DNA of 62,758 nt, taken from contig JAJZTA010000016.1 of NCBI GenBank assembly GCA_021849295.1, positions 1 to 62,758 on the forward strand, given 5' to 3'. The stretch comes from Pseudomonadota bacterium (lineage in GTDB: Bacteria; Pseudomonadota; Alphaproteobacteria; Micavibrionales; UBA2020). Shown here piece by piece: positions 33,003-50,330 of the stretch (positions are counted from its first letter, which is position 1; every line of letters starts with the position of its first letter). Below the pieces are notes generated by a model. It had not been told where the DNA came from. It saw nothing but the letters and a program-made list of their open reading frames with translations, and did not search any database. Both the position numbers and the translations under genes were made by a program.

Positions 33003-33381
33003 GCGCCCTCACCCGGTAAACTAGCGGGGATTACTGCCCGCATTTTCTCGGGACATGTCGAAAGTAAGGACTTGGTGGTTGGCGCCGAAGTCGCATCGAA
33101 CGGAAAGCTCGGGTTTTTACCCAGTTTTCGGGTAAAAATATTGAAATTTTCATCGGTTGACGGCGGCAATAAAATGATCCTACATGGAGCAAATGCCCGA
33201 TATATCGGGCTTATTTGAGGCTGATGAAAAAGTAAGCAAGAAAAGTATCAGGGAATTTTAAGAGGGGTATCAGCGTAATTATTTTCGAGAACAGGGACAA
33301 AAATTCTCGCTATCAGGGAGCAAGAAGTTAGATCAACTAGTTTTTTGAGATCCCAGATTTTGGCTCTTATGATTTCGTATG
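33003..33381. other. island left border and intergenic region
   Basis: Holds the left att-like repeat (33034-33082) and two strong inverted repeats: a 9-base stem TTTTTACCC/GGGTAAAAA at 33114-33138 and the perfect 16-base palindrome GCCCGATATATCGGGC at 33195-33210. These could be transcription terminators for the converging conjugation operon or recombinase/excisionase sites. There is no gene. Confidence 0.5.
33034..33082 (+). repeat. left attachment-site-like direct repeat
   Basis: Matches 50215-50262 over about 48 bases with a handful of substitutions and one indel; the last 15 bases, GGACTTGGTGGTTGG, are identical. In the right copy this segment overlaps the CCA end and last acceptor bases of tRNA-Gln, so this left copy is the displaced tRNA 3' fragment created by integration. 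Confidence 0.75.
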
Positions 33382-34269
33382 TTATGACCACTTAGCAAGG
33401 CCTATTTCACAGAGTAGCGTTCCTACGCATTGAATGGCCAAGTCTGCATCCTGCTCCCGGATTGGATACAAATTTCTTTTTTCCTGCTCCGCAGGTTTTG
33501 CGCGGGCGTGCAGACGAGCAATAATATTAGCGGCATCTCCTGCAATAGTGAGTTCGTCATCCTTTAAACGCTTAATCAGCTTACCCAAATCCACCGCGTC
33601 ATTTTTCTGTAAATTATAGTGGGACAGCAGTGCATGCGTCGCGACATCGCGTGCCCGGTCAATGACAGAAACCGGCGAAGAACGATGTACCTCGTCCATG
33701 AAGGTATTCAGCGTCTCATCCAGCTTCGCCTGAAAGGCTTCGGGGATTTTCTCCTTAATCATCACCGGAAGAATGCCAAAGCTACTCCGCGCCTTAAGTG
33801 TCACCAGATCTTCGCCCGTGACAATGGATTCCACGCTGATAATTGTCCATGCAGTAAAACGGTCATCTATCCCTAAAAGGACTAGCGGCATCTCCCGCTT
33901 TCCCTGAATAAAAGTATACCAGATCGGATTGCCACGGAAGGTTTCTAAACTTTTGCTTTTTGCATGCACTTGCGGATCAATCGCATCCAAGGGAAAGCCG
34001 GGATGATGTGAACACCGCGTCCATTGCATAGGCTGTTGTTCGGCCGCATGATAAAAACGTCCACGCCGGATCCGCGCTATAGGATCGAATGAGTCTTCAC
34101 GAAATCGATATCCAAAATGATCGGAAGAAGAATGGGCCTTCAAATTTCCTTCAGACGGGTAAACGAACTTGGCGGGGGTAATCACGGGCGCTGGCCAAAG
34201 ACCACGCCCATAGTTACCATCGCCTTCATAAACAAGGCCATTATGTTTTTCGATACCTATATTGATCAT
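33382..34269 (-). CDS. unrecognised fourth component of the ubiquitin-like operon
   Basis: A 295-residue soluble protein of unknown family, last gene of the minus-strand operon, 15 bases after the E1 gene with a GAGGAA ribosome-binding site. The N-terminal ~120 residues are rich in aromatic and His residues (GRGLWPAPV, FYHAAEQQPMQW, CSHHPGFPLD) and look beta-structured. The C-terminal ~95 residues are predicted helical (DRARDVATHALLSHYNL ... DADLAIQCVGTLLCEIGLAKW) and recall HEPN/DUF4145-like helical bundles, without a convincing catalytic RxxxxH motif. Its position suggests an effector, adaptor or target of the conjugation machinery. This is inference from context only. Confidence 0.65.
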   Translation of the reverse strand: MINIGIEKHNGLVYEGDGNYGRGLWPAPVITPAKFVYPSEGNLKAHSSSDHFGYRFREDSFDPIARIRRGRFYHAAEQQPMQWTRCSHHPGFPLDAIDPQVHAKSKSLETFRGNPIWYTFIQGKREMPLVLLGIDDRFTAWTIISVESIVTGEDLVTLKARSSFGILPVMIKEKIPEAFQAKLDETLNTFMDEVHRSSPVSVIDRARDVATHALLSHYNLQKNDAVDLGKLIKRLKDDELTIAGDAANIIARLHARAKPAEQEKRNLYPIREQDADLAIQCVGTLLCEIGLAKWS

Positions 34270-34284
34270 ACGTTCCTCGCAATA

Positions 34285-35160
34285 TTAAGATGCTTTTACT
34301 CGCCGAAGATGTGGAATTTCAAGATACCGCTCTATGCCCGCCGCGGAACCCTTGCCCCATATTCCTTTGCAACGATGACAATCGGGTCGCGGCAGGTCTC
34401 TCCCTACGGTCACCATCGACATATGCCCACGATATCTCAAAAGGCTGGCTGGGGCCCTCAGACCCGTCACAGCCACCATAAACTCCATTGCCGCAAGCGA
34501 GGCGATAACTCCGTTGAGTGGCGCAACCGAAGGCCCTTTTTCTTCCAATGCCATTTTATCAATACCGTAAATAGCGTTCTGCTGCGCAAGATTGTCTGCC
34601 GTTTCAAAATATCGACGAACAGCATCGTGGTCGAGCTCGCCCAAGCAATCTAAACATCCATCATTACCTAGGGATACACATACACGTCCGCCATACCCGG
34701 TTTGCTCCGGCACGTCCGAAGCCAGATCAATATAAGGTTTTTTGTAGGCTGCACAAAGCTCGTTCAGGATGGCGCGCGGACCATCTCCGTCGAAGCAGCC
34801 AAAGACCCAATCCACCGCTTTTACAGCCTCAAACGCCGCTTCTGATATAATGCTATATGGCAGAGGAATGCTATCGACGTCTGGGTTTATCTCTTTAATA
34901 TTGCGATCTGCAATTAATACTTTACTCATACCGATGGGATCCGTAGCGCGAGCTCCGATTAAACGGTTACGATTGGTTTCGTCCAGCCCTTCGTCATCGA
35001 CCGAAGCAATACTTTTCACACCGAGAAGCGCCAAGGGCTGAATAATGGCGCTGCCAAGACCTCCTGCACCGGCGACGAGCACGCTGGTATTGCGTAGCTT
35101 CTTCTGGCCCTCGGCGCCGAACATGAGGATATTGCGATGATAGCGTTCTGAGAGGGTCAT
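34285..35160 (-). CDS. E1-like (ThiF/MoeB superfamily) activating enzyme
   Basis: About 291 residues. The nucleotide loop VLVAGAGGLGSAI is at about 27-40, followed by the adenylation motif SVDDEGLDETNRNRL, in which the Arg and Asn/Asp residues contact ATP. Cys residues at about 161, 169 and 172 (VCVSLGNDGCLDC) and a later CHRC supply two CxxC-type pairs for zinc or an active-site thiol. PSVAPLNGVIASLAAMEF is the typical ThiF crossover helix. It should adenylate the C-terminus of a ubiquitin-like protein. The start is ATG 35158-35160, overlapping the JAMM gene's TAA by one base; an in-frame ATG lies nine bases upstream. Confidence 0.88.
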   Translation of the reverse strand: MTLSERYHRNILMFGAEGQKKLRNTSVLVAGAGGLGSAIIQPLALLGVKSIASVDDEGLDETNRNRLIGARATDPIGMSKVLIADRNIKEINPDVDSIPLPYSIISEAAFEAVKAVDWVFGCFDGDGPRAILNELCAAYKKPYIDLASDVPEQTGYGGRVCVSLGNDGCLDCLGELDHDAVRRYFETADNLAQQNAIYGIDKMALEEKGPSVAPLNGVIASLAAMEFMVAVTGLRAPASLLRYRGHMSMVTVGRDLPRPDCHRCKGIWGKGSAAGIERYLEIPHLRRVKAS

Positions 35161-35675
35161 TACTTCCATCCTTCGATTGAATTATTTGTCGGGCTTAAAA
35201 GACGCCCATCCGCAATAAGGCCGTCAAGTTTATTAGGTACCTTCGGATTGTCGAGCCAGACCAGCGCATCAAATCCGCTCGGAGCAACGACAATGGCGAT
35301 ATAAGGACGTTTTTGCAGGCGCCACCACATGTGTGGCACGGTCTCGCCAAGCCCCCGCCTATCTGCCCGTGAAAACTCCGCCGGCCAAGGGCCGGGATGC
35401 GAATGCATCTCTATCAAGGATGTGTTAAGATCGTGCGCCTTTTTAATCAGACGTATGCGCGTTTCGTCGTGAAGTTCCAAATAGTCATCCTCTTGTGTCT
35501 CAAAGTCTGTCGCCGCCAACATCTCCACTTCTACGACGTCGAAAGCAACACCGCCGTTTTCTGGTCGAGCTTTTGCAAACAAGAAGGCTGCTTCTTCACG
35601 TGAGCTGTCAGAAGGTAAAAGATGTCCGACGAGGTCTGCATGCGCCCCATCCGGGAGATTGAGAAGAATTTTCAT
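35160..35675 (-). CDS. JAB/MPN+ (JAMM) metallopeptidase
   Basis: A 171-residue protein with the zinc motif H91-S-H93, Ser102 and Asp105 (MHSHPGPWPAEFSRAD), and a candidate catalytic Glu in REEAAFLFAK near 27. This is the JAMM deubiquitinase fold: it would process the precursor of a ubiquitin-like modifier or remove it from targets. Its length is that of the isolated MPN domain. It lies between the UBL-E2 and E1 genes and overlaps both (4 bases and 1 base), so stoichiometric co-expression is likely. Confidence 0.88.
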   Translation of the reverse strand: MKILLNLPDGAHADLVGHLLPSDSSREEAAFLFAKARPENGGVAFDVVEVEMLAATDFETQEDDYLELHDETRIRLIKKAHDLNTSLIEMHSHPGPWPAEFSRADRRGLGETVPHMWWRLQKRPYIAIVVAPSGFDALVWLDNPKVPNKLDGLIADGRLLSPTNNSIEGWK

Positions 35676-36343
35676 GCTCCCTCCTTAAGGCGTTGCGCAA
35701 AGCTACGCGTCCAATGCACAAGGTTTTGCCCTTTATTGATATCGCCGCTCGCGCACCATTGAGCCGGCGCCCAAGAGAAAAGAACATATTTATCCCCGAA
35801 AGGCGTAATAAAGCCGTCCTTGGCATTCCTGGGCGGCGTTCCTTTGAAATTAATTCCTGCAGGTGCCGCAAAAGCATATGGCGCCGCCGACGGATGCCCT
35901 GCGACCACCTTGAATGTAATTGGCGCATGAGAAATTGGCGTTTGTCCGATACGCCATCCTTCAGGAAATGGATAAGCGGGAATTTGAAACCAATCTTCTC
36001 CGCCATCTTCCTTATGCTTGATATCGGGGTAGTACTTGCGCAGCAGATCAAGTTCTTGCTGGATGCGCTCCCTGATCAGGCCCCGCTTCCATTTATGCTT
36101 TTTACCGAAGCCATGCCCGAGCTGAATTTTTACGGGTACCCCCGGCGGCAAGGTGCGCTCATTGTTATCTTTATCAACCTCAATTACACCCTGAGCCGGA
36201 TCCCAGCCGCCAAGCTCGGCGATCTTCTCTGGCAGAATGGTCTCTTGATCCCAATCAAAATCCTTTCCCTCAATGGTTAAAAGCTGGTTATGGACTTTGC
36301 TTTCGGCTGCCTGCTGCGCGTTCGATGCGTTTTCGTCTTTCAT
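35672..36343 (-). CDS. ubiquitin-like domain fused to an E2-like domain
   Basis: A 223-residue protein, first gene of the operon. Residues about 18-78 (LLTIEGKDFDWDQETI ... LPPGVPVKIQLGHGFG) resemble the multi-ubiquitin beta-grasp domain, with its GKxFxW start. Residues about 88-220 resemble the prokaryotic E2 family E: WFQIPAYPFPEGW, TFKVVAGHPSAAPYAF, GDKYVLFSWAPAQWC and NLVHWTRSFAQRL. Cys197, in QWCASG, is the only cysteine in the protein and is the obvious candidate for thioester transfer. The UBL is followed by a Gly-ending, Lys-rich linker (GHGFG, then KKHKWKRG) that could be a processing site. Family assignments are from remembered motifs. Confidence 0.8.
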   Translation of the reverse strand: MKDENASNAQQAAESKVHNQLLTIEGKDFDWDQETILPEKIAELGGWDPAQGVIEVDKDNNERTLPPGVPVKIQLGHGFGKKHKWKRGLIRERIQQELDLLRKYYPDIKHKEDGGEDWFQIPAYPFPEGWRIGQTPISHAPITFKVVAGHPSAAPYAFAAPAGINFKGTPPRNAKDGFITPFGDKYVLFSWAPAQWCASGDINKGQNLVHWTRSFAQRLKEGA

Positions 36344-36561
36344 TGTTCGACTCCTCGTCGTTTAGGTTATAGAAAGGGCGCAGATTGCATGACCTTGACT
36401 TATGTATATCTTGTATTTCTAGGTCTGAACCTTATTGCCCCGATGTTTTAAGGGTAACGCGATTCGAAGTTAAATGTCAAATTGAATAGAATTATTTTGT
36501 GTATATCATTAGAATTTCCAAAGACATTGACAATTTAAATGACAACCTATATAGAAATAGC
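36344..36561. promoter_or_regulatory. divergent promoter region, conjugation operon / XRE gene
   Basis: About 220 AT-rich bases between the ubiquitin-like operon (minus) and the XRE regulator (plus). For the XRE gene, TTGACA at 36527-36532 and TATAGA at 36550-36555, spaced 17 bases, form a near-consensus promoter. Transcription would start about at the ATG at 36562, implying a leaderless mRNA. The XRE protein is the likely controller of both directions. Confidence 0.5.
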
Positions 36562-36939
36562 ATGAACAACGACCTGATTTATAAACGCATCGGCAGTATT
36601 ATCAGAAACCGCAGGAAGATTCTTAAGCTGACACAAGATGCATTATCTGAACGACTTGAAATATCACGAGCCTCATTAGCCAATATTGAGACCGGGCGTC
36701 AAAACTTTCCCGTGCACCAGCTCTACAATATTGCGCGTGAGCTCGAACTGACCCCAACAGATCTGCTGCCCGTTTTTGTCTCGGCGCCTCAAAAAGGGAA
36801 ACCTACAAAGATTCCGCTGCCCTCGGATTTGAACCCTGAACAGAGACAGCAGATTGTTGCATTGCTTGAAGATGTACAATTTACAACTCCAGAAGATAGA
36901 GAAGTCATCAATGCCAAACAAACAAAAGCAAGATCCTAA
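36562..36939 (+). CDS. XRE-family transcriptional regulator
   Basis: A 125-residue repressor-type protein. Residues about 8-64 form a Cro/C1 helix-turn-helix (IGSIIRNRRKILKLTQDALSERLEISRASLANIETGRQNFPV, quoted loosely). The C-terminal part (PSDLNPEQRQQIVALLE) is probably a dimerisation segment. ATG 36562 fits the HTH start; the frame is open from an upstream GTG, but the predicted promoter lies inside that extension. It overlaps the following ImmA/IrrE peptidase gene by 29 bases, the classic pairing in which the peptidase cleaves the repressor to derepress mobile-element or defence genes. Confidence 0.88.
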   Translation: MNNDLIYKRIGSIIRNRRKILKLTQDALSERLEISRASLANIETGRQNFPVHQLYNIARELELTPTDLLPVFVSAPQKGKPTKIPLPSDLNPEQRQQIVALLEDVQFTTPEDREVINAKQTKARS

Positions 36940-37459
36940 GACCTCCGCTCAAGAACTTCTTGAAAAATGCAATATTCATAGCTTTCCTGTGCCTATAGAA
37001 AAAATTGCAAAGTTTCTTGGAGCGCAGATCCGCTTTTCGCCCCTCGATAAAGAATTATCTGGGATGGTTTATATTAAAGATGGCATGCCCATCATCGGTG
37101 TGAACGCCTTGCATCATCCGAACAGACAACGGTTCACTATTGCACATGAAATTGCTCACATTGTTCTCCACAAGGAAAAACTTTCTGAAGAAGTACATGT
37201 GGACAAGCAGTTTCCTATACTAATGCGTGATCATCTAGCTTCTACCGGTACAGACCAGACAGAGATGGAAGCAAATGATTTTGCAGCAAATCTTTTAGTG
37301 CCACGGGAAACTCTTGAAAAAGCACTGAAAGATATGACTACAGACATTGACGATGATAAGCCTTTAGATGACTTGGCCAAAAAATTCCGCGTTAGCAGAC
37401 AGATGCTGGAATACAGGATCAGGAACCTGCCTCAGGAAACAAAGAAGCCAAAAAACTAA
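36911..37459 (+). CDS. ImmA/IrrE-family metallopeptidase
   Basis: A 182-residue zinc protease of the COG2856 group. The HExxH motif reads HEIAH at about 78-82, in RFTIAHEIAHIVLHKE, and a downstream Glu in EMEANDFAANLLVP is the third zinc ligand, both exactly as in ImmA. It probably inactivates the XRE regulator encoded just upstream. ATG 36911 gives the full N-terminal helix; the overlap with the regulator gene indicates coupling. Confidence 0.9.
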   Translation: MPNKQKQDPKTSAQELLEKCNIHSFPVPIEKIAKFLGAQIRFSPLDKELSGMVYIKDGMPIIGVNALHHPNRQRFTIAHEIAHIVLHKEKLSEEVHVDKQFPILMRDHLASTGTDQTEMEANDFAANLLVPRETLEKALKDMTTDIDDDKPLDDLAKKFRVSRQMLEYRIRNLPQETKKPKN

Positions 37460-37554
37460 TAGACTCGGCAGATCCTGTTTCTATAATATTCTGATCATTC
37501 AGCGAATCATTGGCAAAAGCGCCGTATAAACTGCTCAGTGCCTTGAGAGGACGT

Positions 37555-38961
37555 ATGAGCTTTGTATTTTACGATACCGAAACTACGGGTACGAAGGTCC
37601 CCTTCGACCAAATCCTTCAGTTTGCCGCTATTCGCACAGATTCTGAATTTAATGAAATTGACCGATTTGAGATTCGATGCAAATTGCAGGATCATGTGGT
37701 GCCGGCGCCTATGGCTATGCACATCACGGGTGTTACGGCAGCGCGTCTAACAGAGGTATCACTTCCATCACACTATGAGATGGTTAGAGCGATACGTGAA
37801 AAACTTCTTTCCTGGTCTCCATCTATTTTCATTGGATACAACTCCCTGGAATTTGATGAGCCTCTACTGAGGCAAGCTCTCTATAAAACTCTCCATTCTC
37901 CTTACCTGACAAATACATCGGGGAACTCTCGATCCGATGCTCTGCGGGCCGTTCAGGCAACATCATTGTTCACACCTGATGTTTTTAAAATACCTGAGGG
38001 CAAAAAAGGTCCATCTTTCAAATTAGACCAAATTGCACCTCTCAACGGATTTGATCACAAGCACGCGCACGATGCCATGTCCGATGTCGAAGCGACTATA
38101 TTTCTTTGCCGTATCGTAGCAGAAAAATCACCGGAGGTCTGGTCGTCATTTATGAGATTTAGCCAGAAATCTGCAGTGATCGACTATGTCACATCGGAAA
38201 ATATCTTTTGTTTCACGGATTTCTTTTTTAGTAAGCCATATTCAGCAATAGTAACTACTATTGGCGATGATCCAGACAACGGCTCAAACTTTTATATTTA
38301 CGACCTTTCAATAAACCCGGAAGATCTCGCCGACTTGTCCCATGACAGTCTCATTAAGCGCTTAGGACGGTCTCCAAAACCTATAAGAAAATTGAAAAGC
38401 AACGCAGCTCCTATCCTCATGCTAACCGAAGATGCTCTCGACATTGCGGCTGCAAAAAAGTATGACCTTGAGGAACTGGAGAGACGTGCGAATTTACTGC
38501 AGGGAAATGAAGAATTGCGGCAGCGTCTGATTGCATCTACACAATCTACCTATAAGGAACGAGAGACTTCTCCTCATGTCGAGGAAAGAATCTACGATCA
38601 TTTCTTCTCTGAAGTGGACCAGTGTATCCTGGATGAGTTTCACTCTGTGCCATGGGAGAATAGGCCACCCCTTTTAGAAAAGTTACAAGACGTCCGCTTG
38701 CGCGAACTTGGGCAACGTTTGATCCATACCGAAAGACCAGACCTCATGGAGAAAAGTGAATGTATCAAGCATGACAGGCTGCGCGCGCAGCGCATTCTCG
38801 GGAGTAATGATAATAAGTCATGGCTAACACTACCGGAAGCTATTCAGGATATTGATAAACTTTTGGAATCCGCCAATAAAGAGACAGCGCTCTTTTTAAA
38901 TGAACATAAAAAACTTTTGCTAGAGCGCTTGGCTGGCGTGAATACAATTTTAGTATCTTGA
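37555..38961 (+). CDS. sbcB: exonuclease I (SbcB/XonA-like)
   Basis: A 468-residue 3'-5' single-strand DNA exonuclease, close in length to E. coli ExoI (475). The DEDDh motifs are YDTETTG at 6-12, IGYNSLEFDEPLLR around 100, and HKHAHDAMSDVEATI around 178-192. The ExoI-specific SH3-like and C-terminal helical regions follow (NPEDLADLSHDSLIKRL; ERIYDHFFS). I start at ATG 37555 behind GAGAGG; the frame begins 45 bases earlier at a TTG. An island-borne copy with AT-rich codon use is probably acquired and may act on foreign or damaged DNA rather than replace a host copy. Confidence 0.85.
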   Translation: MSFVFYDTETTGTKVPFDQILQFAAIRTDSEFNEIDRFEIRCKLQDHVVPAPMAMHITGVTAARLTEVSLPSHYEMVRAIREKLLSWSPSIFIGYNSLEFDEPLLRQALYKTLHSPYLTNTSGNSRSDALRAVQATSLFTPDVFKIPEGKKGPSFKLDQIAPLNGFDHKHAHDAMSDVEATIFLCRIVAEKSPEVWSSFMRFSQKSAVIDYVTSENIFCFTDFFFSKPYSAIVTTIGDDPDNGSNFYIYDLSINPEDLADLSHDSLIKRLGRSPKPIRKLKSNAAPILMLTEDALDIAAAKKYDLEELERRANLLQGNEELRQRLIASTQSTYKERETSPHVEERIYDHFFSEVDQCILDEFHSVPWENRPPLLEKLQDVRLRELGQRLIHTERPDLMEKSECIKHDRLRAQRILGSNDNKSWLTLPEAIQDIDKLLESANKETALFLNEHKKLLLERLAGVNTILVS

Positions 38962-38973
38962 CCAGAGAGCTAT

Positions 38974-39753
38974 ATGACCACAAGGAAAACAGCTCTAAAC
39001 CGCCGCCAAGAGTCTCCCGACTTCCCGTCGGCCGTTATCAAAGCTAAAAAAGATCTGGGAAAGAGAAACGATGATTACTTCCGCGTCATGAAAAAACTGA
39101 CCGAGACGAAGGATCTGCACTTATCAACAGCGCTCGAAAAAATGTGGATCTCACTCGAGAACGCTGAAAGAAAAAAGTACGGTAAACAGCATCTCAAAAA
39201 CAGCGCATGGGTTCATTATTTTATAATGCACGTGACCTGCCATTCCGACCTTCCGGATTATTTCTATCAAAACAAGACGCAGAGGAAAAAGCTTTTTGAA
39301 AATATAAGTACACGTTCAGGACATTTAAAAAATATATTGCAGCGTTATCGGCTTGACTATCGTCTCGCCTATTCCGGGCGTCGTAAAATTTTTGATTTTC
39401 ACAAAGGATTCTCGCCGGATAATCCTCGCGGCGTAGCTGAAAATGAAATCGAGGCACCGAAAGCTTCCGAGCTACTGGACCGGCTCCTTCAGCATATTGA
39501 AGATGACTTAAATAAGGCTCCGACAGCCAAGATCGATAAAAAGGAGAAGGCGCGGCAGTTTGTATATGATATGGCGCTGTATTTTAAAAATACCTATGAC
39601 ACGCCGCTGAATGCGGTCATCGCGACAGCGACACACGCAATTCATAACGTTAATTACACCGAGTCTCAAATCAGGAAAATTCTTATAAGAACGGACATGG
39701 GCAAAGACGATGACGAATTTCGTCCCTTTGCCCATCCCTATACCGCGGTATAG
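38974..39753 (+). CDS. hypothetical protein, 259 residues
   Basis: Not recognised. It is Lys/Arg/Asp-rich, predicted mostly helical and soluble. Notable patches are WVHYFIMHVTCHSDLPDYFYQNK (aromatic, His/Cys), and a C-terminal half reading EKARQFVYDMALYFKNTYDTP. It starts 12 bases after the exonuclease stop, so it is probably in the same transcript and may modify or restrain the exonuclease. Confidence 0.6.
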   Translation: MTTRKTALNRRQESPDFPSAVIKAKKDLGKRNDDYFRVMKKLTETKDLHLSTALEKMWISLENAERKKYGKQHLKNSAWVHYFIMHVTCHSDLPDYFYQNKTQRKKLFENISTRSGHLKNILQRYRLDYRLAYSGRRKIFDFHKGFSPDNPRGVAENEIEAPKASELLDRLLQHIEDDLNKAPTAKIDKKEKARQFVYDMALYFKNTYDTPLNAVIATATHAIHNVNYTESQIRKILIRTDMGKDDDEFRPFAHPYTAV

Positions 39754-39804: not shown

Positions 39805-41121
39805 ATGCTTGAGATTAAACCACGAGATATCAATAACTTAAAGCCATATGAGGGCAATGCCCGCACGCACAGTGACAGACAGGTCGGCAAGATCGCCGCC
39901 AGTATCAAGCAGTTCGGTTTTAATAACCCCGTTCTCATCGACAAAAACAGCATCATTATAGCCGGGCACGGGCGGTGCCAGGCGGCAAGAAAGCTGGGCA
40001 TGAAGACCGTTCCCACCATATGTCTCGATCATCTGACAGATGCAGAGATTAAAGCCTACATCCTCGCAGACAATAAGCTTGCAGAGCTGGCCGGCTGGGA
40101 CCGGGAAATTCTCGCCATCGAGCTGCAGCATCTGACGTCACTGGAGCTGGATTTCGACGTAGAGATCACAGGCTTCGGCGCCGGAGAGATCGATTTCATC
40201 ATTGGTGGCGCCGTCGAGGAAAAACTGGACCCCGCCGATGAAATTATAGAACCGGAAAAAGAAAAACCTCCGGTTACAAGATCCGGAGACCTCTGGCATC
40301 TCGGCAACCATCGTCTTATTTGCGGCAACAGCCTGGACGGAGCCAGTTATGCTGCCCTTATGGGAGACGAGAAGGCACAAATGGTCTTCACCGACCCTCC
40401 CTATAACGTCCCCATAGACGGGCATGTCTGCGGCAATGGCGCCATAAAACACGCCGAGTTCGAAATGGCCGCCGGCGAGATGTCGGATGAAGAGTTTACC
40501 GCCTTCCTGACAACGTCGATGGGACTCTTCCGGTCGTATTCAGACGATGGCGCCATTGCTTTCTGCTGCATGGACTGGCGCCATATGGCCGAAATACTGC
40601 ACGCCGGCATGCGGAGCAGTTATGAATTTAAAAATTTATGCGTCTGGGTGAAAGATAACGGCGGCATGGGGTCTCTTTACCGCTCCCGCCACGAGCTCGT
40701 GTTTGTCTTCAAGAACGGGGATGCGCCACATATAAATAATGTCGAACTCGGAAAAAACGGGCGCTACCGCACAAACGTCTGGGAGTACCCCGGCGTCAAC
40801 ACCATGCGGAAGGATCGGCTGGAGGAGCTTGCTATGCACCCGACCGTGAAGCCGATCCTCCTTGTCGCAGACGCCATCAAGGACTGCTCGAAAAGGCGGG
40901 GGATCATTCTCGACCCCTTCGGCGGCAGCGGCACGACACTGATCGCGGCCGAAAAGACCGGCAGGCAGGCGCGGCTGATCGAGCTCGATCCGCACTACTG
41001 CGACGTCGTCGTCATGCGGTGGGAAAAATTAACGGGCGAAAAAGCTTTTCTGGAGGGGGAAGAAACGACCTTTGAAGAGGTCAGACAGCAACGCAATCAA
41101 GAGGAGTATGAAAATGACTGA
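39805..41121 (+). CDS. ParB-domain DNA methyltransferase (beta class)
   Basis: A 438-residue protein. Residues 1-95 are a ParB N-terminal-like nuclease/NTP domain (KPYEGNARTHSDRQVGKIAASI ... IIAGHGRCQAARKLG, quoted loosely). The C-terminal ~290 residues are an N6-adenine or N4-cytosine methyltransferase with motif IV DPPY at about 196-199 and motif I DPFGGSGTT near 371, the order expected for the beta class. Such ParB-MTases are common in prophages and islands of alphaproteobacteria, often with a small DUF5681 partner, as here. No cognate endonuclease is adjacent, so it may be a solitary or anti-restriction methylase. Confidence 0.9.
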   Translation: MLEIKPRDINNLKPYEGNARTHSDRQVGKIAASIKQFGFNNPVLIDKNSIIIAGHGRCQAARKLGMKTVPTICLDHLTDAEIKAYILADNKLAELAGWDREILAIELQHLTSLELDFDVEITGFGAGEIDFIIGGAVEEKLDPADEIIEPEKEKPPVTRSGDLWHLGNHRLICGNSLDGASYAALMGDEKAQMVFTDPPYNVPIDGHVCGNGAIKHAEFEMAAGEMSDEEFTAFLTTSMGLFRSYSDDGAIAFCCMDWRHMAEILHAGMRSSYEFKNLCVWVKDNGGMGSLYRSRHELVFVFKNGDAPHINNVELGKNGRYRTNVWEYPGVNTMRKDRLEELAMHPTVKPILLVADAIKDCSKRRGIILDPFGGSGTTLIAAEKTGRQARLIELDPHYCDVVVMRWEKLTGEKAFLEGEETTFEEVRQQRNQEEYEND

Positions 41122-41617
41122 TATACTGGAAAAAATCGGTTACGGACGTCCCCCGAAAAAGTACCAGTTCAAAAAAGGGCAATCCGGCAATCCCGGCGGC
41201 AGGCCAAAAAAATCAAGAAGTACAGACGACACGATTATAAAAAGCTTAAGAAAGCGTGTGCCTGCACGCATCAACGGCAAGCCCGTAAACGCAGACGTAC
41301 TGGATGCTATTATCATGGCTCAGACAGAAAAAGCGCTTAAAGGCGACACGAAAGCAGCGAAATTCCTGATGGATATGAACCATCAGGCCGAGCAGCGGAG
41401 ATATTATGCGGAAACTGCGATGGACTATCTCAATAAGCAGATTACAAAAGCTCTCCACAAGGCCACATATGATCCGAAAGCAGCACAAAAGATCTTTGAC
41501 CATGTGCGCGCTTTTGCCGATACCGTCGTTGAAAAGTACGAAGAAGACGGCGGCGGGGAATATCGCACGGAAATCGGCGCCCTGCTGGAAGCGGGAGCCG
41601 CCGCGGTCAACGCGTAA
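41114..41617 (+). CDS. DUF5681 domain protein
   Basis: A 167-residue protein with the signature FKKGQSGNPGGRPKK near the N-terminus that defines DUF5681, followed by a helical body with AKFLMDMNHQAEQRR. Start ATG 41114 overlaps the methyltransferase gene's 3' end; GAGGAG upstream is its ribosome-binding site. Its function is unknown. The constant pairing with ParB-methyltransferases suggests a shared role. Confidence 0.82.
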   Translation: MTDILEKIGYGRPPKKYQFKKGQSGNPGGRPKKSRSTDDTIIKSLRKRVPARINGKPVNADVLDAIIMAQTEKALKGDTKAAKFLMDMNHQAEQRRYYAETAMDYLNKQITKALHKATYDPKAAQKIFDHVRAFADTVVEKYEEDGGGEYRTEIGALLEAGAAAVNA

Positions 41618-42557: not shown

Positions 42558-42579
42558 CCCATAATCAAGGAGAATGTGC

Positions 42580-45492
42580 ATGCTTTTAGGTGATGGAAAG
42601 ACTGATGACTGGAAGCTAATCAACTACAGGCAAGTTGGTGATCTTGTCGTCGCAGAGTTCCTCCATGACCTCTACAACCAAGCCGTGATTGATCTCAATC
42701 CAGTTCGCTTTCGAAATACTGTATGCGTGATAGAGAACGGTGAATTTAGAAGTTTCGCGCCACAGAAAGAGTGGGACTACTTGGCAGAGACCCTTGGCGA
42801 ACGGCTTGTTAAAGATCCGGATGCGCGTAAAAAGTTTTCAACCTATCTTGAGCGCTCACAAGACGACTTAACGAATCTCATGGAGAAGCTACAAGAAAAA
42901 TATAAAGACAACAAAACGGCGATTAACAGTAAAGATGCCTTTTATGATCTTTCTGACCTGCAATATATGGCGCTGGATCGCATCTATGCCATTAATTTGG
43001 TGCAGTTTGAACACGCCCTTGGCCATGCCCTTGCAAATATCTTGAATGTCCCTAAAGAAGATGTTGATAAACTGCTAAAATCTTCTGAACTGACTATTAG
43101 TGGTCAAGAAGAAATGCGTGCCATTGATCTGTCTCTTCAAATAACTTCCGGAAAATTATCTCTTGAGCAAGCTGCAGAGATACACGAAAAAGAGTTTGGC
43201 GGCATCCACCTCGCCTATGGTGCGGAACGTGATAATTTTGATAGTCACAGCAAAACACGATTAGAGGAACTGTTCAAGACGCCCGAGGCAGACCGTCAAA
43301 AACGTCTAAAAGACCTCCAAAATGCGCCTGCACAAAAAGTTGAAATCGCCGGAGACAATGTTGTTCAAGAGCTTGCGGAACTTGCCAAGAAGCTAGGGGA
43401 GCGGCGCGATAGAAATAAAGCCCTAATGGGGCGTGTATCAAGTGTACGGGCAAATATTCTTAATAAAGTCGCAGAACTCGGTAACATTGAAAGATCAGAA
43501 CTGCGCCATTACTTCTTAAAAGATATATTTGACCTTTTGTCGAAAAACAAAAAGCTCTCTCCCGAAGAAATAGAAAAAAGAAAAGGCCGTCTTGTTCTGC
43601 AACGGCAGGAACATGAAGTATATGGCGTAGAAGCAGTATCTATCTCTGAAAATGTGCTGCCCAGTTTATCTCAATTACAATCAACGACCGAATTACAGGG
43701 CATCCCAGCAAGTTCCGGCGTCATACGGGGAAAAGTCCGCAGAGTTTACACGATAGAAGAAGCCCGCAAAGTTCAGCCGGATGAAATCATGGTTGCCTAT
43801 GGCACAGATTTTGACTTAATGGTTGGCCTTCAAAATTGCGCTGGTGTCATAACAGAAGAAGGCGGCCTTCTTAGCCACGCATCCGTTATCTCAAGAGAAC
43901 TTGGAAAACCCTGCCTTATTAATGTTAAGAATGCTATGAGCCTTCTTAAGGACGGAGACACCATTGAGATTGATACGACTAAATCCATAGTCAATGTTAT
44001 TGATCGCGTACAAAATCAAGTCACTGAAGCCAATGCGGTCACGCGCCTTGAAGATGCTAAAATAGATGAAATTAAGGGGGCTAAAGCGAAGAATCTTCGC
44101 CTCCTCCGTGAAGCTGGCCTACCCACCTTACCAGCTGTGCTGGCGTCTGTAGCCGACCTCTCTAATAAAGAGAAAATCGCTGAGAATATTCTGGCTGTTT
44201 TTGGAAACAATGGCGTTGTAGCAAATTCTTTTATTGTACGTAGCAATACAGAAAACGAAGATATCGAGGGCCAATCGATGGCGGGGCAATATAACTCCCT
44301 CGTATCCCGGTCTGAAAAGAAAGATTTAGCTGAAGCAGTTTCAGCAGTTATAGAAGCCTATAAAAATACAAAAGTAGAACAACTCAATACCGGAAAAGAT
44401 CCCGGCAATACAGTCCTTATTCAACCTTACTATGCGCAACAATATGGCGGAGTTGCTTTCAGCCACCATCCGGTTACAGGAAAATCTGGTGTGGTCATAG
44501 AAGCCAGCGATAAGGGGGCTGGAGCTGTTGTTGAAGGGCAGAAAACATTACCTGAGAAGAACCTCCCTGAAAACATCCGTAAAGAAGTCACTTCTGCAAT
44601 TGAAAAGATTGAAAAAGTCCTGAAATGCCCTGTGGATGTTGAATGGGGATATGGCGCGGATGGCCTAAAAATATTCCAAGCTCGCCCTATTGTTTTTAAG
44701 GATACCACACCTCAAACAACACTAAAGAACCTTATTTTGATAGCTGGCGGTGAAGGATCTCGCATTAGAGAAATGTTTAATGACAAAGCCGCACCATTTA
44801 CAAAGCATTTTCTTCCGCTACCGGAAAAAGGTGGGTCAATCATCGGAGCAATCGTCGAAAAAAGCAAACCTCACTTCGATAAAATCGAGATAGCTGCCAG
44901 CAAGAATACAATGGACTTTATGGCGACAACATTTGAAGAGCAGGAAAAAGTTGAAGTTTCAAATGACGACAAGATGATTGGACCTCTTGGGCCGCCCCTT
45001 TTGAGGTTGCTTGCAGAGGGCAAACGGGTCTTTGCTTGTTGCGGAGACGTTTATAGCAATTTTGATTGGAACGAGATGGAAAAGTTCCATGAAAAAAGCG
45101 GCAATGCTGTTACAATCCTTGTTGCGAAAAGTTTCCCCGCAGAAAAGGCGGCTTGCTTCAACATAGATGACAGCGGAAAAATTACAGGATGGGACAGAAA
45201 GAAAAAATCAACGGAGAATGACTATATAAACATCGGAGGCTATATTATAGACCCTTCTCCCGAGGTTATAAAGATTGCTAAAGAATTGGTAGAACAAGGA
45301 CACTGCAAAGAGGACGTTTTTTTTGAAAAATGCATAGAGGCTGGCATTATCTCTGGCTTCAAAGACAAAGGCTTCTCATGTAACGTTAATACGCCTAGCG
45401 TATATCAAGCGCTGGTGTCTAAACTCATTAAAGAAAAATCAGCAAGAAAGACTACTCCACCAAAACCTCCACAACAAAACAGACATCCCTAG
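42580..45492 (+). CDS. PEP-synthase-like phosphohistidine/ATP-grasp enzyme fused to a nucleotidyltransferase
   Basis: A 970-residue fusion. Residues about 1-360 are helical and may bind substrate. About 365-460 is a swivelling phosphohistidine domain with EEGGLLSHASVISRELGKPCL, His near 433. About 480-705 is a complete PPDK/PEP-synthase ATP-grasp domain: GAKAKNLRLLREAGLPTLP, IVRSNTENEDIEGQSMAGQY, GGVAFSHHPVTG and VDVEWGYGADGLKIFQARPI. The order is inverted relative to PPDK, PpsA and rifampin phosphotransferase. From about 717 a sugar-type nucleotidyltransferase begins with LILIAGGEGSRI. Start is ATG 42580, seven bases after AAGGAG; an ATG six bases upstream is too close. It probably transfers phosphate to, and then nucleotidylates, an unknown small molecule. 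Confidence 0.8.
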   Translation: MLLGDGKTDDWKLINYRQVGDLVVAEFLHDLYNQAVIDLNPVRFRNTVCVIENGEFRSFAPQKEWDYLAETLGERLVKDPDARKKFSTYLERSQDDLTNLMEKLQEKYKDNKTAINSKDAFYDLSDLQYMALDRIYAINLVQFEHALGHALANILNVPKEDVDKLLKSSELTISGQEEMRAIDLSLQITSGKLSLEQAAEIHEKEFGGIHLAYGAERDNFDSHSKTRLEELFKTPEADRQKRLKDLQNAPAQKVEIAGDNVVQELAELAKKLGERRDRNKALMGRVSSVRANILNKVAELGNIERSELRHYFLKDIFDLLSKNKKLSPEEIEKRKGRLVLQRQEHEVYGVEAVSISENVLPSLSQLQSTTELQGIPASSGVIRGKVRRVYTIEEARKVQPDEIMVAYGTDFDLMVGLQNCAGVITEEGGLLSHASVISRELGKPCLINVKNAMSLLKDGDTIEIDTTKSIVNVIDRVQNQVTEANAVTRLEDAKIDEIKGAKAKNLRLLREAGLPTLPAVLASVADLSNKEKIAENILAVFGNNGVVANSFIVRSNTENEDIEGQSMAGQYNSLVSRSEKKDLAEAVSAVIEAYKNTKVEQLNTGKDPGNTVLIQPYYAQQYGGVAFSHHPVTGKSGVVIEASDKGAGAVVEGQKTLPEKNLPENIRKEVTSAIEKIEKVLKCPVDVEWGYGADGLKIFQARPIVFKDTTPQTTLKNLILIAGGEGSRIREMFNDKAAPFTKHFLPLPEKGGSIIGAIVEKSKPHFDKIEIAASKNTMDFMATTFEEQEKVEVSNDDKMIGPLGPPLLRLLAEGKRVFACCGDVYSNFDWNEMEKFHEKSGNAVTILVAKSFPAEKAACFNIDDSGKITGWDRKKKSTENDYINIGGYIIDPSPEVIKIAKELVEQGHCKEDVFFEKCIEAGIISGFKDKGFSCNVNTPSVYQALVSKLIKEKSARKTTPPKPPQQNRHP

Positions 45493-47003: not shown

Positions 47004-47981
47004 ATGATGCGACGAGACCCCCCAAACCCCACCACAGATTTTTCCAAGATCACCCAAGCGAAATACATCAAACTGGGAGAAAAAGGGAAATGGGATAACT
47101 TGTGCTTCAAAGACGGCACACTCCGGCTTGGATATGACGAAGTTGCGGCAGATTATAGTACCCCCCAAGGAAAAAAACCTGTTTTTGATCTATATAAAAA
47201 ACAAGGAAAAACAGACGGTGCCGCTTCAAATCATGCCCGCCAAGTGCATGACTTCTACGCAGCTGGCTCTGAAACACTTTGGATTACGTTTTCAGATGAC
47301 AAGCTATGGTGGTGTCAGGCACGCGGTCCGGTAGAATTTATCAGTCACGATAAAGAAATTGCCAGCAAACAGGGAAGCCGCTTACGGCGCACCGTATCGG
47401 GCTGGCATGATGTCTCATCCATGGGAAAGATATTGCACATGGGAAAAATGAGCGGGCGACTGACCAAGATATCCGGTTTTCGTGGCACGATATGTGATTT
47501 ACAGCCCACAACTTTTGAATATCTCTTTCTGCTTTTGCAGGGAAAGAATATACCTGCGGTTGAAAAGGTTCTTGCGGATAAAGAAGAACTACTCGGCTCT
47601 ATAAAAAAACTTATCAAAGATCTAAATCCGTTTGATTTTGAGCTTCTCGTAGACTTAATCTTTAGTGCATCGGGATGGCGCCGCATTGGCATTATCGGCG
47701 GGACGCAGAAAACAAAAGATCTTGAATTAATTATGCCGGTGACAGAAGAACGTGCCATCGTGCAGGTCAAATCATCCACGACACAGCAACAATTCAATGA
47801 ATATCTTGATAGGTTCGAAGGTTTTCCTGCCGACAAGATATTCTACGTCTACCATACGCCAGAACGTGATTTAATGTGCAATGCCGAAGAGACAAACATA
47901 GTGCTGATCGGGCCAAAAGCGCTCGCCGAAAACGTTTTACGCGCAGGACTTGTCGATTGGCTTATTGAAAAAGCAGGATAA
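47004..47981 (+). CDS. Mrr-like PD-(D/E)XK restriction endonuclease
   Basis: A 325-residue protein. The C-terminal half has the Mrr-type core: LNPFDFELLVDLIFSASGWRRIG, then KDLELIMPVTEERAIVQVKSS, where Asp-Leu-Glu and Gln-Val-Lys supply the D...QxK catalytic residues. The N-terminal half (about 20-180), with LWITFSDDKLWWCQA, may be a recognition domain, perhaps for modified DNA. Start ATG 47004 follows AAGGAG seven bases upstream, immediately downstream of the structured RNA. A second ATG follows directly. It is a plausible type IV or stand-alone nuclease of the island. Confidence 0.72.
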   Translation: MMRRDPPNPTTDFSKITQAKYIKLGEKGKWDNLCFKDGTLRLGYDEVAADYSTPQGKKPVFDLYKKQGKTDGAASNHARQVHDFYAAGSETLWITFSDDKLWWCQARGPVEFISHDKEIASKQGSRLRRTVSGWHDVSSMGKILHMGKMSGRLTKISGFRGTICDLQPTTFEYLFLLLQGKNIPAVEKVLADKEELLGSIKKLIKDLNPFDFELLVDLIFSASGWRRIGIIGGTQKTKDLELIMPVTEERAIVQVKSSTTQQQFNEYLDRFEGFPADKIFYVYHTPERDLMCNAEETNIVLIGPKALAENVLRAGLVDWLIEKAG

Positions 47982-48217: not shown

Positions 48218-48661
48218 ATGGCGAAGATTCTTACAAAACCTGATAATAGTATTACTCAGCTATCACTGACCGAATTACGCATGAAATGGGCCGAATGCTG
48301 GGGTATGGCGCCACATACGCTGATCGGGCGCACAATGCTGGAGAAAAGCCTTGAGTTCAAGCTGCGGGAGCTGGAAACGGGCGGTCTGGCGCCCGAACAG
48401 CAGGCTCGTCTTAATCAGCTGATCAAAAATTACAAGCGTAATCCACGCTGTTTCGATGACAACGAGCCGGAGATAAAGCCCGGCACCCGGCTCGTGCGCA
48501 TGCATAAAGGTGCACGGCATGTCGTCCTCGTACTGTCACAGGGGTACGAATATCAGAACACCAAATATAGCAGCCTTTCTGAAATAGCATCCCGGATCAC
48601 CGGATGTCGCAGAAACGGATGGGTATTCTTTGGCCTGAAGCGCAAGGATGATGGGGCATGA
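48218..48661 (+). CDS. DUF2924 protein
   Basis: A 147-residue basic protein with GTRLVRMHKGARHVVLVLSQGYEYQNTKYSSLSEIASRITGCRRNGWVFFGL (summarised), which is the DUF2924 core. This family is regularly encoded just upstream of large serine recombinases in alphaproteobacterial elements, and may assist DNA binding or direction of recombination. AGGAGG lies before the ATG. Its last four bases overlap the recombinase start (ATGA). Confidence 0.85.
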   Translation: MAKILTKPDNSITQLSLTELRMKWAECWGMAPHTLIGRTMLEKSLEFKLRELETGGLAPEQQARLNQLIKNYKRNPRCFDDNEPEIKPGTRLVRMHKGARHVVLVLSQGYEYQNTKYSSLSEIASRITGCRRNGWVFFGLKRKDDGA

Positions 48662-50067
48662 AAGAAGGTATAAAACACTGCGCCATCTACACCAGAAAAT
48701 CTACCGACGAGCGGCTGGACATGGAATTCAACTCACTGGATGCGCAGCGTGAATCATGTCTGGCATATATTCAAAGCCAGAAATCTGAAGGATGGGCCGC
48801 ACTGAAAAAGTCATATGACGATGGCGGTTTTTCGGGCGGCAGTATGAACCGCCCGGCACTCGCAGAACTGCTCGAAGACATAAAATCTGGTAAAGTGAAC
48901 ATCGTTGTCGTTTACAAAATTGACCGTCTGACCAGGTCTCTCATGGATTTTGCAAAGCTGGTGGAGATTTTTGATCAGCACGGCGTCACTTTCGTCAGTG
49001 TCACGCAATCATTCAACACCACAACATCCATGGGGCGCTTGACTTTGAACGTCCTTCTGTCGTTTGCTCAATTCGAGCGCGAAGTTGCTGGCGAGCGCAT
49101 TCGGGACAAGATTGCTGCCAGTAAGAAGCGTGGTATGTGGATGGGCGGGACACCGCCAATCGGTTACAAAGTCACAAACCGACAGCTGATAATCGATGCC
49201 AATAATGCAAAACTGGCGCGGCATATTTTTGATAGATATGCTGCGCTGGGCAGCGTATACAAACTGACAGAAGAGCTAAATTCGCAAGAGATTAAAAACC
49301 CCGTACGGATATCCGAAAAAGGATGGAAATACGGAGGCACCGAATTTTCACGAGGTGCTGTTCACAACATTCTGACGAACCCCATTTATGTCGGGAGAAT
49401 CAAGCATAAAAACAATTCCTACGATGGGCAGCATGAGGCTATTATCCCGCAGGATGTATGGGATGACGTCCAGAAGAAACTACAAGAACAGGCACCTTCT
49501 CCACGCGGTTGCACGAAAGCGAAGGACATCAATTTACTGCAAGGACTTTTGTTTGATGCGAATGGGCAATCCTATGGACCGACTTTTTCTATCAAGAACG
49601 GCAGGCGTTACCGTTACTACATCGAACAAAGCTTGCGTCGCACAAACAAGGGGAACAGAATCCCTGCCTTTGAAATCGAGACACTTGTCGAACAAGCCGT
49701 TCGGAAGCACCTGAAGGCACAGGAAGAGCTGCCCGCGCAGGAATTAACCAGAGCAATTGAACGAATTGAACTACGACAAAGCGAAATACTCATTACCATG
49801 CGTTCGGATAATTTCGTTATCCATGTGCCATACAAGCGTGACAAGTCCTTTAAAGGCGCCATCGTCATCAGGCCGAAAGGGCCGCACGATGATATTCTAG
49901 ACCTTCCCAGCCATAAGCTCAGAAGGCTTGTAGAGGGGATCATCTGGCAAGAAGAACATTTTGCGGGAACGGCGGTCAAGGATATCGCGATTCGCGAGAA
50001 GCGCTCCGAATCCTATGTTGGCACCGCCATTACGGACGGATTTGAAATCCTCGCCTCTGCTTTTTAA
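48658..50067 (+). CDS. large serine recombinase (site-specific integrase)
   Basis: A 469-residue enzyme. The resolvase-type catalytic domain (1-150) starts AIYTRKSTDE with Ser15 as nucleophile and contains the arginine-rich GGSMNRPALAELLEDI and VVYKIDRLTRSLMDF motifs. A recombinase domain follows (about 160-260, with GGTEFSRGAVHNILTNPIYVGRIKHK, summarised), then a DNA-binding region where the usual zinc-ribbon cysteines are absent. It ends 188 bases from tRNA-Gln, next to the right att repeat, and is therefore the likely integrase of this island. Confidence 0.92.
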   Translation: MKEGIKHCAIYTRKSTDERLDMEFNSLDAQRESCLAYIQSQKSEGWAALKKSYDDGGFSGGSMNRPALAELLEDIKSGKVNIVVVYKIDRLTRSLMDFAKLVEIFDQHGVTFVSVTQSFNTTTSMGRLTLNVLLSFAQFEREVAGERIRDKIAASKKRGMWMGGTPPIGYKVTNRQLIIDANNAKLARHIFDRYAALGSVYKLTEELNSQEIKNPVRISEKGWKYGGTEFSRGAVHNILTNPIYVGRIKHKNNSYDGQHEAIIPQDVWDDVQKKLQEQAPSPRGCTKAKDINLLQGLLFDANGQSYGPTFSIKNGRRYRYYIEQSLRRTNKGNRIPAFEIETLVEQAVRKHLKAQEELPAQELTRAIERIELRQSEILITMRSDNFVIHVPYKRDKSFKGAIVIRPKGPHDDILDLPSHKLRRLVEGIIWQEEHFAGTAVKDIAIREKRSESYVGTAITDGFEILASAF

Positions 50068-50214
50068 ACATCACGATCCCTTATCAAAACCTGCCCGCCG
50101 ACACGCTGCAAAACTGGCCACTGAGCAAAGCCCCCATTTTCGGCCGAAATTAACCATTGCTCAGCGCGTGCCGGAAATGGTGAGCGCGCGAAAGCGCGCT
50201 GTTGGCGGCCATTT

Positions 50215-50262
50215 CTGCCCGTATCTGCTCAGGTCGTGTCGAAAGGAGGACTTGGTGGTTGG
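50215..50262 (+). repeat. right attachment-site-like direct repeat
   Basis: Partner of 33034-33082. Its right edge overlaps the CCA end and the last acceptor-stem bases of the minus-strand tRNA-Gln, the usual place for island integration that keeps the tRNA functional. Confidence 0.75.
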
Positions 50263-50330
50263 GGTGCCAGGGATCGAACCTGGGAATGGCGGTACCAAAA
50301 ACCGCTGCCTTACCGCTTGGCTACACCCCA
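50256..50330 (-). tRNA. tRNA-Gln (anticodon UUG)
   Basis: On the minus strand: acceptor TGGGGTG/CACCCCA, D-arm GCC...GGC, anticodon arm GCGGT-TTTTGGT-ACCGC with anticodon TTG, and T-arm CCAGG-TTCGATC-CCTGG. It has discriminator A and an encoded CCA (50256-50258). It is the integration site of the island; the displaced 3' fragment is at the left att repeat. Confidence 0.95.

Follow-up and report, generated by a model that had tools for sequence, protein, structure and literature searches.

Which of the known bacterial ubiquitin-like conjugation systems is represented by a tightly packed operon in which the modifier is fused to its E2, and does the gene that trails the operon take part? The question is raised by four genes at positions 33,382 to 36,343 of contig JAJZTA010000016.1 (NCBI GenBank assembly GCA_021849295.1) from a Pseudomonadota bacterium (Alphaproteobacteria; Micavibrionales; UBA2020). 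The whole stretch of DNA analysed, 62,758 nucleotides (nt), is here called the window. The genes encode a fusion of a ubiquitin-like modifier (UBL) to an E2-like protein, a JAMM metallopeptidase, an E1-like enzyme and a protein here called X. The operon is a Bub-type system, variant in the fusion of one UBL to the E2 and in the splitting of JAMM and E1 into separate genes. The strongest new result is that the joint of the fusion coincides with the C-terminus of free modifiers. We consider it probable that the UBL–E2 chain is cut by the JAMM peptidase after Gly88, that the modifier is then activated by the E1 and transferred by an E2 bearing a serine, and that X stands apart. The features concerned, with lengths in amino acids (aa), are:

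35672-36343, minus strand: UBL–E2 fusion gene, 223 aa
36080..36343, minus strand: UBL (beta-grasp) part, residues 1-88 of the fusion with WKRG88 at its end
35672..36079, minus strand: E2/UEV-like part, residues 89-223 of the fusion and the stop codon
35774..35776, minus strand: Ser190 codon, serine in 42/42 aligned rows, likely replacing the E2 catalytic cysteine
35753..35755, minus strand: Cys197 codon, the only cysteine of the fusion, not conserved (1/42 rows)
35160-35675, minus strand: JAMM/JAB metallopeptidase (BubD-like), 171 aa, Prok-JAB match
34285-35169, minus strand: E1-like adenylating enzyme (BubC-like), 294 aa, ThiF match
33382-34269, minus strand: X, 295 aa, N-terminal beta-rich domain and C-terminal HEPN-like domain
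33391..33756, minus strand: HEPN-like domain of X, residues 172-293

A sequence-only reading of this DNA had described four closely packed minus-strand genes, and the list of open reading frames (ORFs) bears out all four together with their coordinates. The UBL–E2 and JAMM genes overlap by 4 nt and the JAMM and E1 genes by 10 nt, while 15 nt separate the E1 stop from the start of X, ahead of which a GAGG motif was read by eye. Homologous operons occur elsewhere and the arrangement is therefore not due to chance.

The fusion joint and the E2 part

The UBL–E2 protein matched no Pfam profile at a threshold of E 1. Its assignment rests instead on relatives and on structure comparison, which bear out the beta-grasp/E2 fusion that had been read from the sequence; the UBL part is a beta-grasp modifier of the Multi_ubiq type. 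R87 and G88, the last two residues of this part, are invariant in the alignment of fused proteins (32/32 rows). When the UBL part alone was used as a query 241 proteins were found, and among the 120 of these free relatives that were listed the C-terminal motif was WKRG in 119 and FKRG in one. Termination precisely at the glycine of this motif was seen in 116 of the 120, with one extra residue in three of the others and five in the fourth. Of 18 other UBL proteins from the first search, six ended at the glycine, 11 ran two residues beyond it and one ran further. The joint thus matches the C-terminus of the free UBLs, which places the E2 directly behind the last glycine of the modifier.

The structure nearest to the E2 part is BubB, and the fold is that of a BubB-type E2 without a catalytic cysteine. 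Conservation was read from 42 rows, comprising 32 fused proteins and 10 proteins from loci with one duplicate (P0008 being L092). Both Ser190 and Trp196 are invariant (42/42), and no conserved catalytic cysteine was found in the E2 part among these rows. The single cysteine that had been pointed out in the first gene does exist, as C197, but it is not a conserved catalytic residue, the window protein being the only one of the 42 to carry it. Ser190 likely sits at the position of the usual E2 cysteine, and the chemistry of transfer would be that of an ester rather than a thioester. The 2026 work of Ye on the Bub mechanism reportedly found ester, not thioester, intermediates. This group of E2s was judged likely to be inactive by Iyer et al. 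(2006; PMC1779556) as the catalytic cysteine is missing (papers are cited by PMC number).

Relatives and distribution

The order UBL–E2, JAMM, E1 with the modifier fused recurs on a Candidatus Tenderia plasmid, where there are three UBL repeats, and in a Trinickia genome whose UBL–E2 protein is identical to P0008 (Trinickia symbiotica). A separate JAMM gene lies beside the fusion in all three loci of this type that were read (window, L087 and L092). Another genome of the class (L142) has an unfused version, in which the UBL ends FKRG-stop and this stop shares one base with the E2 start; the locus continues with JAMM and E1, and XRE and M78 genes are divergent. In seven genomes (L098-L104) the E2 stands alone and JAMM and E1 form one chain, and the UBL genes of these loci were identified in L099-L101 and, for L103, in L086. 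The E2s of these classic Bub loci (L086, L098-L104) carry FSWH and no conserved cysteine, and the UBLs of L086, L099, L100 and L101 terminate in FG plus two residues. A further locus, L105, combines a three-UBL–E2 fusion with a JAMM–E1 chain.

The UBL–E2 profile matched 3/398 genomes of the phylum and 2/55 of the relatives (the genome of the window included in both), 1/11 of the genus Trinickia and 6/398 of its family, while the UBL profile matched 2/385 genomes of the class, again with the own genome included. Besides the window, only the Trinickia genome in these samples has a fused type of the window's kind. The alignment A1 left out P0001, P0020, P0029, P0032 and P0036-P0053, which were near-identical, partial or confined to the UBL, and BubB-type E2s may escape its profile since a fusion at another locus, L063, was missed by it. 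As a positive control on 11 Bub loci, the UBL–E2 and E1 profiles each matched 11, the UBL profile alone 7 and the JAMM profile 4.

The JAMM peptidase and the E1

The JAMM protein has an intact metal motif, HSHPGPWPAEFSRAD (HxH, S, D), which is conserved in Tenderia. It scores 25.1 bits with the Prok-JAB profile against a cut-off of 25, and its only matches in the Protein Data Bank (PDB) are weak ones to Citrobacter BubCD (E 0.037-0.040). The E1 carries GAGGLG and two CxxC pairs and matches the Pfam ThiF family at E 1.8e-38, so that the identities originally proposed for both enzymes stand. Within 11 E1 rows the conserved cysteines are those of the CxxC pairs (each 10/11) and C125 (11/11), the motif of which is also common in ThiF/MoeB.

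An E1 of this family might instead serve a cofactor or sulfur-carrier pathway, as the ThiF and MoeB models match it at E 4.8e-26 and 2.4e-25 and ThiF heads its PDB list. We regard this as very improbable indeed. The E1 falls far below the curated cofactor cut-offs (91.4 of 275.25 bits for TIGR02356; 89.2 of 266 bits for NF004281) and clusters in the tree with its counterparts from the UBL–E2/JAMM operons of Tenderia and Trinickia (support 100/99). Six high-scoring ThiF-family rows from other genomes form a separate clade (98/98). The comparison rows were ThiF-family proteins above the Pfam cut-off, except L107. The tree has nine open forks, among them the one joining the window E1 to other Bub E1s, and three very long rows, and conclusions were drawn from starred clades only. 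The genes that accompany it in the operon favour a BubC-type E1. No cofactor gene was found by Pfam on four Tenderia and two Trinickia neighbours. The grouping with MoeB/ThiF enzymes beside cofactor genes that had been named as refuting the conjugation reading was not found among these rows and neighbours. The own genome (G000, an 88%-complete assembly) has just two ThiF-family matches, a 403-aa frame and the E1 of the window.

JAMM and E1 are separate overlapping genes in the window, L087, L092 and L142, not one chain as in Citrobacter BubCD. Adjacent but separate JAB genes occur in such operons (PMC1779556), and the one-chain form was for that reason treated as typical rather than defining.

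A kinship with the BilABCD systems had also been suggested, and the operon could be an antiphage system of that kind, tagging phage proteins by way of a cysteine E2. The same functional enzyme classes are present, and one fold match of the UBL (8u38) was named Ubl-BilA by its depositors. The E2, however, is nearest to BubB and has no conserved cysteine, and the E1 is a single adenylation module of 294 aa whereas the BilD E1 is two-lobed (PMC11354881). A Bil-like antiphage system is therefore highly improbable.

Cleavage of the fusion

In the mechanism that we favour the modifier and the E2-like protein would be made as a single chain. Since the E2 directly follows the last glycine of the modifier, the JAMM peptidase would have to cut at the joint before the E1 could use the modifier. 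The neighbouring JAMM would likely make this cut after Gly88, at the end of WKRG, before tagging starts. The freed modifier with its Gly88 end would then be activated by the E1, and transfer is predicted to be carried out by the E2 that bears the conserved serine at the likely cysteine position, leading to conjugation of the UBL to targets. If this is correct the peptidase would be an activator and not an eraser alone, and both the cut site at G88 and the serine of the E2 site are single-residue predictions open to simple tests.

Several observations weigh against this account. At the joint of the BubB-type UBL–E2 fusions of L105 and L063 there is no KRG motif, and both loci encode JAMM and E1 as one chain. 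As 116 of the 120 listed free UBLs require no trimming, the JAMM is not there for the maturation of those proteins; it could act on conjugates only, with the fusion staying uncut. The separation of JAMM and E1 departs from the one chain (BubCD) of Citrobacter, and by plain sequence score the top PDB matches of the E1 are ThiF proteins, ahead of BubCD (1.4e-7). The invariant C125 makes a thioester on the E1 possible. Finally, X lies 15 nt from the E1 with a plausible ribosome-binding site, and a working link between X and the operon is possible.

The fusion might accordingly remain whole, its UBL part serving the E2 as a permanent docking or scaffolding module, with another UBL or none conjugated. 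The joints of L105 (three UBLs) and L063 favour such an arrangement, as does the own genome, in which the fusion is the single match to the UBL profile; a second free modifier of this type that would need the E2 was therefore not found there. On the other hand, the invariant R87 and G88 coincide with the end of nearly all the listed free relatives, and the separate JAMM gene has been retained beside the fusion in the window, L087 and L092. We consider an uncut fusion doubtful, and cleavage after Gly88 remains the reading adopted here.

The fourth gene

The fourth gene had been called unrecognised, and X is indeed silent in Pfam, NCBIfam and PADLOC at E 1 and in PHROGs at E 0.01. Its C-terminal half shows a helical, HEPN-like fold. 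Conservation was assessed in 77 of 82 rows (81 loci plus the window, with ORFs below 270 aa dropped), among which D204 is conserved in 73, R207, H254 and R256 in 76 each and K258 in all 77. The classical RX4-6H ribonuclease motif is not conserved in these rows (H212 in 4/77). HEPN families with alternative active sites have been described, such as the alternative histidine in the family of 2hsb, and at least 16 HEPN clades are linked to restriction systems (PMC3710099).

X is absent beside all 11 other Bub loci tested (L087, L092, L098-L105 and L142), three of which, those of Tenderia, Trinickia and L142, share the core of the window. The neighbourhood survey that had been suggested for the four-gene order thus recovered UBL–E2, JAMM and E1 but not X. 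The X family has 832 protein matches, 120 of them listed; 53 of the 120 plus the window make up alignment A2. The metagenomic proteins P0055-P0062 are 75-81% identical to X. The 81 loci studied, 80 from genomes and one viral, have flanks of at least 5 kb on both sides in 52 cases and of less than 5 kb on a side in 29, with 15 having less than 1.5 kb on one side. In 79 of the 81 the flanks contain no match to the UBL–E2, UBL, JAMM or E1 profiles. The exceptions are L063, where X shares its strand with a Bub operon some 7 kb off and other genes intervene, and L061, which has an E2–E1-type gene. The L063 operon (L063:459-2980) consists of a BubB-type UBL–E2 fusion with WSRH, a JAMM–E1 chain and then a small CPCGC protein. 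In L061 (L061:9800-13152) X is about 0.5 kb from, and facing, the E2–E1-type gene of 597 aa; JAMM-like and nucleotidyltransferase-like ORFs lie around it and by eye the locus looks like a type II CBASS (cyclic oligonucleotide-based antiphage signalling system).

Many relatives of X are found near type I restriction genes. Within 6 kb of X an HsdS-like gene cluster is present in 25 of the 81 loci and an HsdM-like one in 22, these labels having been assigned by reading representative sequences. Upstream of X, 15 of 51 scanned ORFs were Methylase_S, the 51 coming from 68 candidates in the 81 loci after shorter ones had been removed by hand, some of them probably not genes. X recurrently stands at or overlaps the HsdS stop codon (L004-L081), and in L009 it lies between HsdS-like and HsdR-like genes. 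The family may therefore supply type I restriction systems with a HEPN-like partner. Three of six plasmid relatives were examined, and they lie close to a Zorya gene, a BREX gene and a toxin-antitoxin pair, respectively. In L003 a DUF5681 gene ends 30 bp ahead of X.

The sequence-only reading had taken X for a part of the system in place of a free UBL; its absence beside other Bub loci and the mostly different contexts of its own relatives do not sustain this. Together with the HEPN-like fold they make it most likely that X is a separate HEPN-type defence gene and not part of the tagging machine, although judged from sequence it is probably co-transcribed with the E1. X might instead act as the system's effector, in the form of a HEPN ribonuclease that Bub conjugation restrains or activates, with the four genes forming one abortive-infection unit. 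The spacing of 15 nt, the GAGG motif, the shared strand and a gap too small for a promoter fit such a unit, as do the HEPN-like fold, the frequent position of X at the stop codon of type I specificity genes (that is, its riding in immune operons) and the Bub operon 7 kb off in L063. Set against these are its absence beside the other Bub loci, including the three with the same core, the flanks of 80 of the 81 X loci without a UBL, UBL–E2 or JAMM profile match (in 29 of the 81 a flank is shorter than 5 kb) and the fact that RX4-6H is not conserved. We hold an effector role to be unlikely. Rather improbable too is a zymogen-like cassette in which an inert UBL–E2 chain is switched on by the JAMM, which would free both parts equally, transfer would proceed by a cysteine-free serine ester, and X, drawn from restriction islands, would be the killing arm. 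X draws attention to a large family of defence-island genes that Pfam does not name and that tend to lie behind type I restriction genes.

Regulators and island

Divergent from the operon are two putative regulatory genes:

36562..36939, plus strand: XRE repressor, CapH-like; ORF opens at 36499, ATG at 36562; HTH_19 4.2e-12, PADLOC capH 1.2e-8
36911..37459, plus strand: M78 peptidase, CapP-like; ORF opens at 36854, ATG at 36911; Peptidase_M78 5.4e-27, PADLOC capP about 1.8e-31
36467-36494 and 36532-36559, unstranded: two 28-nt direct repeats, 75% identity, possible operator in the divergent promoter region

The divergent XRE/ImmA-type pair that had been reported is thus confirmed by the PADLOC matches, and an XRE gene and an M78 peptidase gene do stand beside the putative immune operon. 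The capP match spans model positions 2-150 of 242 only, for which reason the M78 protein is called no more than CapP-like; a full-length CapP with its C-terminal part was not found. Both proteins have relatives beside L142 (1.7e-13 for XRE and 3.5e-39 for M78), and the Trinickia locus also has divergent XRE and M78 genes, its M78 protein matching capP at 9.7e-14. CapW or CapH plus CapP adjoin 219 of 544 Bub operons (PMC13373217). The pair may control the operon upon DNA damage. The 28-nt repeats are a pattern only, and short two-copy families are frequently due to chance.

The operon is predicted to lie at the left edge of a 17-kb island. The island had been described as tRNA-borne, and a tRNA-Gln, a serine recombinase and a pair of direct repeats sharing a 16-nt identical core agree with this:

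33024..33082, plus strand: left att-like direct repeat, 81% over 59 bp with the right repeat, E 2e-7
48658..50067, plus strand: large serine recombinase, Resolvase 3.4e-38, Recombinase 2.2e-17
50205..50262, plus strand: right att-like direct repeat; overlaps the tRNA-Gln at its 3' end
50256..50330, minus strand: tRNA-Gln(TTG), predicted target of the island

Directly behind the CapP-like gene is an ExoI/SbcB-like exonuclease (37510-38961; PADLOC RTasSbcB 1.7e-111), and the island proteins that were scanned include no reverse transcriptase. A phage-like pair (39805-41617) is formed by a ParB–DNA methylase protein and, after it, a DUF5681 protein. Unusual cargo is seen at 42574-45492, where a 972-aa protein combines PEP-utiliser, PPDK_N and nucleotidyl transferase parts; its gene is adjoined by cupin, NUDIX and FBP_C zinc-finger genes. 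Two further island proteins (38974-39753 and 47004-47981) have no convincing Pfam match and no PHROGs match.

Comparison with known systems

The comparison was based on Bub operons, using the Citrobacter structures of BubCD, BubCD-BubB and BubCD-BubA (9ea4, 9ea5, 9ea8, 9eae and 9eav), and the proteins of the window show structural kinship with BubA, BubB and BubCD. Shared with Bub are a UBL, an E2 with a fold nearest to BubB and no conserved cysteine, a JAMM, an E1 and divergent CapH/CapP-like regulators. The window differs in its single UBL fused to the E2, in its separate JAMM and E1 genes and in its C-terminal motif, WKRG in place of the FG-x-x of four classic Bub UBLs. A defence role has been suggested and may apply here; according to PMC13373217, protection of a host against phage has yet to be demonstrated for Bub operons. 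The description of the operon as undescribed is not supported, since polyUbl operons and polyUbl–E2 fusions were noted in 2006 (PMC1779556, Table 1, row 6e) and Bub operons beside CapW or CapH plus CapP have been published (PMC13373217). The systems of row 6e share with the window a UBL (in 1-3 repeats there), an 'inactive' E2/RWD-like domain, a JAB and an E1. In the window a single UBL is joined to the E2, the JAB and E1 are separate and no adjoining metal-binding C-x3-C protein was seen, while the conserved serine comes from the present alignment.

With BilABCD the operon has in common a UBL, E1, E2 and JAMM in one operon, and it differs in lacking a conserved E2 cysteine, in its single-module E1 and in the single UBL fused to the E2. 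X resembles the HEPN proteins of restriction systems (PrrC, RloC and others; PMC3710099) in the fold of its C-terminal domain and in often lying behind HsdS genes, but it has no ABC ATPase part and no RX4-6H, with H254-x-R256-x-K258 and D204/R207 conserved instead. The fusion itself is paralleled by the eukaryotic ubiquitin–ribosomal protein fusions UBA52 and UBA80, in which the modifier is likewise the N-terminal part and which are cut after the last glycine of ubiquitin (PMC11354881). In the window the partner is an E2-like protein and cleavage is predicted; if it occurs, the same trick would have been applied with the modifier's own transfer enzyme as the fused partner.

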